Source of the DNA: Hyphomicrobiales bacterium
Lineage (GTDB): Bacteria > Pseudomonadota > Alphaproteobacteria > Rhizobiales > Xanthobacteraceae
DNA: 64,000 bases
Direction: 5' to 3'
NCBI GenBank assembly: GCA_017305715.1
Contig: JAFKKG010000040.1
Location: 1 to 64,000, forward strand
Shown here: one piece after another, positions 30,359 through 32,424 of the stretch
How the letters are laid out: each line of letters begins with the position of its first letter
How positions within the stretch are numbered: the first letter of the stretch is position 1
Program-made: the position numbers and the translations under genes
The notes under the pieces: model-generated
Databases searched by the model: none
What the model saw: the letters and a program-made list of their open reading frames with translations, nothing else
Told to the model about the DNA's origin: nothing

Positions 30359-31384
30359 TCACGCCATCGCGCGCTGCGGCAGCAGTTCCGCGATCTGGAC
30401 CGCGTTGAGCGCGGCGCCCTTGAGGAGCTGATCGGCGGAGACGAACATTGCGATCGAGTGACCCGAGGGGTCGCTGAGGTCCTTGCGGATGCGGCCGACC
30501 AGCACGTCGTCCTGGCCCGATGCGTCGATCGGCATCGGAAAATAGTTCTTCGCGCGATCGTCGATGATCTTCACGCCGGGCGCCTTCGACAGGATCGCGC
30601 GCACGTCGTCTTCGGTGATCGGGTTTTCGCATTCGAAGGTGATGGCCTCGCAATGCGCGCGCAGCACCGGCACCCGCACGCAGGTGACACCGATCGCGAT
30701 CTTCTCATCCTCGAAGATCTTTCGGGTCTCCTTGATGACCTTGGTCTCTTCGTCGTTGTAGCCGGTCTCGGGATCGATCGCGGTGTTGTGGCTGAACACG
30801 TTGAAAGCATAGGGCAGCGGGATCACCTTGGGCGTGAACGGCCGGCCCTCGAGGCTCGCGCGGGTCGATTCCTTCAGTTCCTCCATCGCCGCCGCACCGG
30901 CGCCGCTGGCGGCCTGATAGGTCGAGATGATCATGCGCTTGATGCGGTTCTGGCGGTGGATCGGCCACAGCGGCACCAGGGCCGTGATCGCCGAGCAGTT
31001 CGGATTGGCGATGATGCCCTTGTGGTCGCGGATGCGGCCCGCGTTGATTTCGGGGATGACCAGTGGCACGTCCGGATCCATCCGGAAGGCCGATGAATTG
31101 TCGACCACCACGGCGCCCGACTTCACTGCGATCGGCGCATACTTCTTCGAAATGCCGCCGCCGGCCGAGAACAGCGCGATGTCGACGCCGTGGAAGGAGT
31201 GCGGGCCGAGTTCCTCGATCACGACCCGATCGCCGCGGAAATCGATGGTCTGGCCGGCCGAACGGGCGCTCGCCAGCGCCTTGAGCCTGCCGACGCGGAA
31301 ATTGCGCTTGTCCATGGTGGCGATGAATTCGGCCCCGACGGCGCCGGTCACGCCGACAATGGCCACTACTGGATCGTTGCTCAC
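30359..31384 (-). CDS. asd: Aspartate-semialdehyde dehydrogenase
   Basis: Reduces aspartyl phosphate to aspartate semialdehyde, the branch point to Lys/DAP, Thr and Met. The protein has 341 residues from a GTG start preceded by AAAGGGAAA. It shows the NADP-binding VGVTGAVG, the catalytic Cys130 in NPNCSAI, the SGAGAAAMEEL segment and TCVRVPVLRAHCEAI. An intrinsic terminator in the same orientation ends about 30 bp before the start and a Thr/Lys-rich mini-ORF lies upstream of it, so expression is probably controlled by attenuation. Confidence 0.98.
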   Translation of the reverse strand: MSNDPVVAIVGVTGAVGAEFIATMDKRNFRVGRLKALASARSAGQTIDFRGDRVVIEELGPHSFHGVDIALFSAGGGISKKYAPIAVKSGAVVVDNSSAFRMDPDVPLVIPEINAGRIRDHKGIIANPNCSAITALVPLWPIHRQNRIKRMIISTYQAASGAGAAAMEELKESTRASLEGRPFTPKVIPLPYAFNVFSHNTAIDPETGYNDEETKVIKETRKIFEDEKIAIGVTCVRVPVLRAHCEAITFECENPITEDDVRAILSKAPGVKIIDDRAKNYFPMPIDASGQDDVLVGRIRKDLSDPSGHSIAMFVSADQLLKGAALNAVQIAELLPQRAMA

Positions 31385-31417
31385 GTTGGTATTTCCCTTT
31401 GTTTGCAGGCAATAAAA

Positions 31418-31445
31418 AAGCCCCGGTCCTTTTCAGGCGGGGCTT
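31418..31445 (-). terminator. Intrinsic terminator just upstream of asd (attenuator)
   Basis: On the - strand AAGCCCCG and CGGGGCTT form an 8-bp stem with a partly paired loop, followed directly by TTTTTTATT. It ends about 30 bp before the asd GTG in the same orientation. Its left arm can alternatively pair with leader sequence at 31488-31496, which would prevent terminator formation. Confidence 0.8.
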
Positions 31446-31470
31446 CGGTTCAGATGATGCGATCGTTCGA

Positions 31471-31542
31471 CTACGCGCGCACGGCTCCCGAGCCCCCCGA
31501 GGGTGCTTTGGTTTTCGCGGTGCGTTTGGTGGTCGCGTTCAT
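31471..31542 (-). CDS. Putative leader peptide of asd
   Basis: A 23-codon frame, MNATTKRTAKTKAP followed by SGGSGAVRA. Four Thr and four Lys codons fall within codons 4-12, and Thr and Lys are both end products of the asd pathway. There is no Shine-Dalgarno; a sigma70-like -10 element ends 8 bp before the ATG, so the transcript may start at or next to the AUG, as in leaderless rhizobial trpL. Codons 16-19 contain the segment that can pair with the terminator arm. Confidence is for the regulatory reading as a whole. Confidence 0.55.
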   Translation of the reverse strand: MNATTKRTAKTKAPSGGSGAVRA

Positions 31543-31550
31543 GGTGCGGA

Positions 31551-31579
31551 CTTATGCGGCAGCTTTGGGCTGCCGTCAA
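31551..31579 (-). promoter_or_regulatory. Sigma70-like promoter of the asd leader
   Basis: On the - strand TTGACG (31579-31574), a 17-bp spacer and CATAAG (31556-31551). The -35 matches five of six consensus bases and the -10 four of six, with ideal spacing. The predicted start falls within a few bases of the leader ATG at 31542. Confidence 0.55.
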
Positions 31580-31624: not shown

Positions 31625-32230
31625 TCATCGCCGACCGGCGGCGCCGGGTGGCTCGAGGATCACCTGCTTCAGGTCGCTGCCGGTCATGACGACGATCGCG
31701 AAATTCAGCCGGCTGCTTTCGCGGATCAGGCCGCCGCTGATGGCCTTGCCGTCCGCCACCTGTTCGGCCACGCGAACGGCATCCTTCAGGCGGTGCCGGA
31801 TCGTCTTGAGTGCCACGAGGTTGCTGCGGTTCTCGGCATCGAGCTGCGTCAGCGGCAACGCGGCTTCGCCGCCGACGATCTTGCCGGTCCTGGCGTCGAT
31901 CGTGTGTCGCCAGAGGCGGTCGTGGTGAAGGGTCTTGACGCGGTAGACCGGAGCATCCGACGCGCCGTCGAAGCTGACATCGGCGGTCGTCGCGCCGGCA
32001 TGCTGGGCCTCGGCGATGGCCATCGCTTGGCTCATCGAGACGGTCGCGCCGCGGAAAGCCGCAAGTTCGCGGCTGACGGCCTGCTGATCAGACGCCGCGC
32101 CATCCCCGGGTTCACGGCTGAGCGCGGCGGCCTCGTCGGCCGACGATGCCATGGCACCGACCGGGGCGGGGAGGGTGATCGCGACCAGGAGGGCTGCAAG
32201 CAACGGTCTCCAGCATTTTGGCGCACGCAT
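31625..32230 (-). CDS. PepSY-domain protein, exported
   Basis: A precursor of about 201 residues. The ATG at 32230 has GGAG nine bases upstream; an ATG at 32245 has its AGGG too close. The signal is MRAPKCWRPLLAALLVAITLPAPVGAMA. The mature part has a helix-rich segment (SMSQAMAIAEAQHAGATTADVSFDG) and the strand pair APVYRVKTLHHDRLWRHTIDARTGKIVG, the PepSY pattern typical of small periplasmic proteins. A TetR-type operator lies about 200 bp upstream, shared with the patatin gene. Confidence 0.75.
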   Translation of the reverse strand: MRAPKCWRPLLAALLVAITLPAPVGAMASSADEAAALSREPGDGAASDQQAVSRELAAFRGATVSMSQAMAIAEAQHAGATTADVSFDGASDAPVYRVKTLHHDRLWRHTIDARTGKIVGGEAALPLTQLDAENRSNLVALKTIRHRLKDAVRVAEQVADGKAISGGLIRESSRLNFAIVVMTGSDLKQVILEPPGAAGRR

Positions 32231-32424
32231 GCTTGCAGTCTCCATCCCTGAGCCTATGTCTGCCGGCGGACCGGCCGGATCGCCTCGATGAAGGCGCGGC
32301 CGACCCCTTGGGGGCATAAGGGTCGGCCGCGGAGCGTCGCAAACGGGCTGTACCGCCGCTTGTGGCGATCGAAGCGGAGAGGGCTCCCGCCGGGGACTAG
32401 GACGTCGGAAACCCGCAACCGCTC

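Follow-up and report, generated by a model that had tools for sequence, protein, structure and literature searches.

A putative leader-peptide attenuator with threonine and lysine codons upstream of asd in Bradyrhizobium and other alphaproteobacteria

The Escherichia coli thr operon attenuator (thrL; Rfam family Thr_leader) combines a leader open reading frame (ORF) rich in Thr and Ile codons with alternative hairpins and an intrinsic terminator. The product of aspartate-semialdehyde dehydrogenase, encoded by asd, is a precursor of both Thr and Lys. Here we analyse a putative Thr/Lys leader-peptide attenuator upstream of an asd gene on a 64,000-nucleotide (nt) stretch of Hyphomicrobiales DNA (assembly GCA_017305715.1, contig JAFKKG010000040.1, positions 1 to 64,000), called the window below.

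The closest alphaproteobacterial systems are cited here from the available portions of the published texts. The Sinorhizobium meliloti trpL/rnTrpL is a leader-peptide attenuator whose transcript begins with the AUG of the leader ORF (PMC7298713, PMC10117765). In the same species SEP5, a translated small ORF with six Thr and three Lys codons, lies in the 5' untranslated region (5'-UTR) of an "aspartate dehydrogenase" gene, and was suggested as a possible leader peptide, one whose conservation is confined to Sinorhizobium (PMC10117765). For the Caulobacter ilv leader, classical attenuation was described with transcript data (PMC4117421). The portions seen of the open PubMed Central full texts describe no asd attenuator in alphaproteobacteria (subscription literature may hold one), and "asd" is not mentioned in those of PMC2965389, PMC5756330, PMC9320726, PMC1273637 and PMC4833913, nor in that of the PMC4842269 main text. 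A first-pass annotation of this DNA had stated that it knew of no such attenuator being described; we likewise found none, and the Sinorhizobium leader-peptide proposal qualifies the statement.

Anatomy of the asd leader and its proposed mechanism

We consider it highly probable that a ribosome-mediated transcription attenuator of the trp/thr type, sensing Thr and Lys, controls this asd gene. The attenuator reading, which the first-pass annotation had put forward, is supported by the conservation of codons and reading phase, by the coevolving pairing and by the fixed distance between promoter and ATG.

All features lie on the minus strand. The asd gene (30359..31384, GTG start at 31384) encodes a protein matching TIGR01296 asd_B with 403.6 bits (cutoff 324.2), as well as Pfam PF01118/PF02774. 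The putative promoter (31551..31579) consists of a -35 element TTGACG (31579-31574), a 17-nt spacer and a -10 element CATAAG (31556-31551). The leader ORF MNATTKRTAKTKAPSGGSGAVRA (31471..31542) begins with ATG at 31542-31540, 8 nt past the -10 element, and has 23 codons followed by TAG (31473-31471). Its codons 4-12 (31507..31533), the putative regulatory codons, read Thr4 Thr5 Lys6 Arg7 Thr8 Ala9 Lys10 Thr11 Lys12. Segment 2, GGGGCTCGG (31488..31496), the 5' side of the predicted antiterminator, lies within leader codons 16-19, and segment 3, CCGAAGCCCC (31439..31448), its 3' side, overlaps the left arm of the predicted intrinsic terminator. The terminator, AAGCCCCG-CCT...AGG-AC-CGGGGCTT followed by T6 (31414..31445; arms 31445-31438 and 31425-31418, T6 31419-31414), ends shortly upstream of asd, the GTG beginning 29 nt beyond the T6. 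A candidate protector hairpin (segment 1:2), AGC(A)CCC / GGG-GCT by sequence, occupies 31491..31507.

The promoter pair with its 17-nt spacing and the ATG 8 nt downstream had been placed at these same coordinates by the first-pass annotation, and its 23-codon ORF and T6 terminator before the asd GTG were likewise confirmed in the minus-strand sequence. For codons 4-12 it had counted four Thr and four Lys codons; the Thr count is correct, but only three Lys codons are there.

In the proposed mechanism, transcription would begin at or beside the AUG of the short leader ORF. With ample charged tRNA-Thr and tRNA-Lys, the ribosome would reach the stop codon and cover segment 2, leaving segment 3 free; the left and right arms could then pair, and the terminator would form and release a leader RNA some 130 nt long. 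When Thr or Lys is scarce, the ribosome would stall in codons 4-12 and leave segment 2 exposed for pairing with segment 3, and this pairing would block the terminator and allow asd to be transcribed. Both termination in vivo and the Thr/Lys response of the asd leader are what we infer from the sequence.

Conservation of the codons, the reading phase and the pairing

Thr/Lys-rich short ORFs are rare in the window: on both strands of the 64 kb, with ORFs collapsed by stop, two ORFs of 12-45 codons, one per strand, carry six or more Thr/Lys in 12 codons (two or more of them Thr and at least one Lys), and the leader ORF is one of them. When its own bases were shuffled, at least seven Thr/Lys in nine codons occurred in 3 of 78,133 stop-free shuffles, and at least seven anywhere in 885 of the 78,133.

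A script that needs a Thr/Lys ORF plus a terminator was applied to 110 asd loci, namely the 30 best-scoring loci of the same genus and 80 contigs, the best of at least 580 candidates, among which the nearest asd loci were from Bradyrhizobium, which makes this the probable genus of the window. Leader and terminator were called in 92 loci, comprising all 85 of the Bradyrhizobium type and 7 from other alphaproteobacteria. Among the 18 uncalled loci, five from Acetobacteraceae or Rhodospirillales (L094, L096, L100, L102, L107) carry a leader by eye that the regular expression missed; for the remaining 13 (planctomycete, cyanobacterial and other), the script found no leader and some were inspected by eye. 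Since some loci of both sets belong to one genome, the 92 leaders reduce to 84 unique regions, with 52 unique peptides.

The promoter keeps its place relative to the ORF. TTGAC begins 37 nt before the ATG in 82 of the 92 leaders, and a -10-type hexamer stands 8 nt from the ATG in 79, a spacing with which the leader transcript would probably start at the AUG or within a few nt of it and be translated as a leaderless message. In B. japonicum, 320 transcription starts are reported to lie 0-10 nt before a start codon, 192 of them exactly at it (PMC4842269).

The ORF length is 72 nt in 85, 75 nt in 4 and 69 nt in 3 of the 92 leaders; these lengths are divisible by three by construction, because the script sought ORFs, and were not counted as evidence. 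The reading phase was therefore judged against a landmark near the stop codon, TGCGC or CGCGCGC, located irrespective of frame, in the 84 unique leaders with the 8 duplicate regions left out. The ATG-to-landmark distance falls in a single phase in 75 of the 84 (3 and 6 in the other phases), while the distance from the landmark to the terminator arm is spread over the phases as 29, 32 and 23, that is, randomly. Pairwise gap lengths divisible by three make up 33% (578/1,728) inside the ORF versus 5% (239/5,267) past the stop. Constraint on the codons was estimated as the ratio of nonsynonymous to synonymous polymorphism (pN/pS), a rough and noisy measure over so short a sequence, in 60 unique leaders of 72 nt (25 duplicates among the 85 and the 7 leaders of other lengths were dropped). 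For codons 2-13 it is 0.58 in frame versus 1.30 and 2.01 in the other frames. In the same 60 leaders Thr or Lys stands at codons 5, 6, 8, 10 and 11 in 58, 60, 57, 60 and 60 cases, respectively, and each has 7 to 11 Thr plus Lys codons. Thus, the alignment of Bradyrhizobium loci that the first-pass annotation had proposed bore out the Thr/Lys codons: they and their phase are kept across the loci fetched.

The pairing was analysed in an alignment of 26 sequences (A2). The terminator helix is 96.5% paired, with GGGGCTTTTTT invariant in all 26. The antiterminator is 79% paired by column, with 3 of its 9 pairs changed on both sides, which is a modest signal, and pairing reaches 91% in a stem around the stop codon; the joint covariation score of the antiterminator and this stem was matched by 4 of 500 shuffles. 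The candidate protector AGC(A)CCC / GGGGCT, located where the Thr/Lys block ends, has the least support of these pairings, with 75% of its cells paired and not one compensatory change. The first-pass annotation had instead offered GGCT-CGGG-AGCC as the protective hairpin, which is present here and in close kin but missing in the main Bradyrhizobium group; the protector is probably a different hairpin, for which AGC(A)CCC / GGGGCT, seen more widely, is a weakly supported candidate.

Because the A2 pair counts showed nothing for the terminator and only a modest signal for the antiterminator, a swap test was made with wider relatives: 37 leaders, 36 before the same asd type and one (L211) before a more distant type. 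The native segment 2:3 duplexes have a mean energy of -26.3 kcal/mol versus -22.7 ± 0.49 for permuted partners, and none of 20,000 permutations did as well. When 15 groups, drawn by hand, were each reduced to one representative, the sole means by which descent was handled, the values are -27.8 versus -23.6 ± 0.74 kcal/mol (0 of 100,000 as good). Segments 2 and 3 thus coevolve over the 37 leaders, in line with the antiterminator that the first-pass annotation had drawn between codons 16-19 and the left arm of the terminator. It had also looked to compensatory changes in both stems; segment 2:3 coevolves in diverse relatives, whereas the terminator helix is too invariant to covary.

The switch was modelled by stalling a ribosome at each codon, assuming its front edge to lie 12 nt past the first base of the A-site codon, and computing the probability of the 2:3 pairing, P(2:3), before the right arm is made. 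For the window leader, one of eight modelled individually, P(2:3) is 0.97-1.00 for stalls at codons 3-12 and 0.03 at codon 16. Over the 37 leaders the mean P(2:3) is 0.86 at 311 Thr/Lys codons versus 0.33 at 540 other codons, and the per-leader mean is 0.866 versus 0.527 ± 0.021 in 5,000 permutations of position. What is specific in the model is that the 3' end of the Thr/Lys block roughly coincides with the predicted switch.

Distribution, descent and look-alike leaders

The same asd type was detected in 138 of 146 genomes of the genus, some matches being partial; in the other eight the match is much weaker (G032, G041, G048, G053, G097, G132, G137) or lacking (G091). When genomes were searched with a covariance model, R1, a match at E ≤ 0.01 turned up in 31 of the 249 from the order and in 51 of the 337 from the class. 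In the order sample, strong matches (123-142 bits) occur in Bradyrhizobium alone (7/7). Many of the weak matches are other leaders or plain terminators, and those scoring 25-41 bits at other genes were left out of the count of asd attenuators; two R1 matches, L147 and L158, lie before asd and are the same loci as L193 and L201.

Among the matches listed for the 337 genomes of the class sample, 24 places, the window included, carry an asd with 56% or more identity to that of the window. Leaving out L202, at a contig end, 22 other places were tested: 15 have a Thr/Lys leader by rule and one, L198, which fails the cluster rule, has one by eye and was kept in the swap test, the stall model and the tree. 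In six of the 22 (L189, L190, L191, L194, L196, L207) no leader was recognised before asd. For the more distant asd (about 47% identical), 46 loci were taken, 40 from roughly alternate rows of a score-ordered list plus 6 (L248 being partial), and two have a leader (L211, L242); a third, L166, was found via R1. L218, which passes the cluster rule at 5 and shows no terminator by eye, was not counted. The genome of the window itself holds a second asd (L111), 47% identical to the leader-bearing copy and likewise matching TIGR01296, and in this genome no Thr/Lys leader was recognised by eye in the 500 nt examined before it.

In a tree of 53 proteins, midpoint-rooted and with some long branches, the 34 leader-bearing asd of type P0001 group together in a single clade (support 96/97), inside which no asd without a leader falls, and the leader-bearing L211 and L166 lie apart from it. 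Since these 34 genes form one clean, supported clade, the leader seems to be inherited with the asd subfamily. In the family sample the same asd is found in 5 of 5 Bradyrhizobium genomes versus 1 of 114 others (G791, 81%), and the asd of G791 also has a leader (L254: 6 Thr, 1 Lys, terminator), a pattern that suggests that asd moved by gene transfer with its leader attached. A BLAST search of plasmids with the leader gave no match.

The output of the leader may differ among relatives. Of the 37 leaders, 20, the group of the window among them, have a T-run of at least 5 past the hairpin, and the run is at most 3 in the other 17 (L090, L096, L100, L102, L186, L188, L192, L193, L198-L201, L203-L206, L211), many of which fold a hairpin over the asd Shine-Dalgarno region. 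In a swap test with fixed windows, which cut some hairpins badly, this hairpin did not reach significance (permutations as good: 1,341 of 20,000 for 18 leaders; 3,073 of 50,000 for 11 representatives), and that the output changed from transcription to translation is therefore raised only as a hypothesis. As a possible though doubtful history, the Thr/Lys leader would have arisen once in the asd subfamily and travelled with asd between families, Bradyrhizobium included; in part of the subfamily a Shine-Dalgarno hairpin would have replaced the T-run and shifted control to translation. The window copy would then be the transcription-terminating form, giving its host one regulated asd beside a second without a recognisable leader.

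In nine Bradyrhizobium loci (L034, L035, L037, L040, L048, L055, L056, L063, L077) we observed a palindromic repeat of about 50 nt, GCATGATCCGGAAAAGTGG..CCGGTTTTCCGA..GATCATGC with variants, between the terminator and asd. Many of the leaders that R1 matched before different genes end in ..AR or ..VR, coded by GCGCGC, GTGCGC or similar right before the stop, a sequence that in the asd leaders can base-pair with a downstream CGCA.

Look-alike leaders were found before other genes, also in the genome of the window. There a dapA-like gene, matching TIGR00674 just over the cutoff, is preceded by a terminator and a leader with two adjacent Lys codons (L170, G000:C49:176066-176192, plus strand), and similar Lys leaders stand by eye before dapA-like genes in L175, L177, L178, L164, L181 and L134, with ..SSKKGP.. 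in the Bradyrhizobium ones and variation in the others. These could possibly be lysine attenuators of dapA. A conserved leader ORF with terminator was also seen in L171 (window's genome, G000:C23:15220-15360, minus strand), L172-L174, L176, L179 and L182, reading ..RKHMTRSRWAVEGVVR in L174; the ORF that L171 precedes is small and carries a DUF1127 domain (PF06568), and that after L174 is similar by eye. Thr-containing, mostly Thr-rich leaders with terminators precede an ORF of about 400 amino acids in L145, L148, L151, L152, L153, L157, L161 and L180; in L151 this is a short-form threonyl-tRNA synthetase, its match to the thrS model covering just the C-terminal portion (172-558 of 565), and the others are alike by eye. 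R1 further matched leaders with aromatic codons of WYFSY type (L123, L126 and L128, the last over the 3' part of the leader alone), with Leu codons (L120, L183) and with Ile/Thr codons (L119, L122), perhaps representing known kinds of attenuator. A wider set of attenuators outside Rfam is therefore within reach of such models.

Alternative readings and comparison with known systems

Several results weigh against the attenuator reading. A generic consensus scan for sigma-70 promoters and terminators listed neither at the locus, and the 162-nt leader RNA is no more stably folded than its dinucleotide-shuffled versions (z -0.69; 48 of 200 as good). In A2 the terminator helix is without compensatory change and its covariation score is lower than that of every shuffle, and the window locus alone does not beat swapped partners (-20.7 versus a mean of -21.9). 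The gap test is mixed, as many gaps of 1-2 nt remain inside the ORF, probably in part compensating alignment gaps. Over codons 2-23 pN/pS is just 0.92 in frame versus 1.18 and 1.12 in the other frames, and over codons 14-23, which contain the pairing segments, it is 2.14 versus 1.06 and 0.56; this is fairly read as a Thr/Lys block maintained for its codons, with the remainder of the leader maintained mainly as RNA. In the stall model, any codon block 5' of segment 2 would score similarly, and the footprint edge is assumed. The ribosome-free window leader is also predicted to form 2:3 before the right arm is made (0.97), in contrast to L018 (0.00), so the protector hairpin has no predicted role in the window leader. 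At full length the terminator wins in the window leader for stalls on codons 11 (0.95) and 12 (0.99), and the decision would therefore be kinetic, taken during RNA synthesis, as in classical attenuators.

The same observations bear on other explanations. A gene for a PepSY protein (31625-32317, minus strand) lies upstream and co-directional, its stop at 31625 being 45 nt before the -35 element, and the hairpin might merely terminate this gene, with the small ORF incidental. We rejected this explanation as scarcely credible: the small ORF, its phase and the 2:3 pairing are kept together with asd across many families. A metabolite-binding riboswitch with an untranslated ORF would also act via a terminator and an alternative pairing, and the 2:3 pairing predicted for the ribosome-free window leader would suit it. 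That a riboswitch controls the terminator is nevertheless very improbable, and was rejected, since the phase is conserved and the in-frame constraint is located in the Thr/Lys codons; moreover, Rfam at the gathering score (Thr_leader included) gave no match in the window and, in 17 related loci, two tRNAs and one glycine riboswitch, nothing over the leaders.

Two further explanations keep the attenuator and alter a part of it. The attenuator may be real and not leaderless, transcription starting a few nt upstream and leaving a very short 5'-UTR; start-site choice does vary by a few nt, but the -10-type hexamer lies just 8 nt from the ATG in most leaders, and we regard such an arrangement as rather unlikely. 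Improbable, too, is a dual-function RNA, in which attenuation would be joined by an action in trans of the released RNA or peptide, as for rnTrpL/peTrpL of S. meliloti: the predicted released leader, about 130 nt long and starting at the AUG, resembles rnTrpL (PMC7298713, PMC10117765, in the portions available), while the noisy in-frame pN/pS of codons 14-23 gives no sign of the second half of the peptide being maintained as a protein.

Thr/Lys-responsive attenuation would give Bradyrhizobium and other alphaproteobacteria a concrete, testable control point for the aspartate-family amino acids, at the enzyme that acts ahead of the split between the Thr and Lys branches. A single leader would then sense two end products of a branched pathway; it is retained with one asd lineage, while the genome of the window has a second asd copy that lacks it.

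Compared with thrL, the asd leader has the same parts, a leader ORF with codons for the end products, alternative hairpins and a terminator before genes of the aspartate family; the E. coli target is thrABC with Thr/Ile codons, whereas here it is asd with Thr/Lys codons. Like the putative asd leader, rnTrpL is an alphaproteobacterial leader-peptide attenuator, but with Trp codons and trpE(G) as target, and the trans functions reported are those of rnTrpL. The Caulobacter ilv leader differs in its Ile/Val codons and in its operon. SEP5 comes close in its Thr and Lys codons; its account, in the portion available, mentions no terminator or antiterminator. Taken together, the conserved asd leader very probably works as a ribosome-mediated attenuator for Thr and Lys; the kind of attenuator was already known, and there was an earlier hint in Sinorhizobium.

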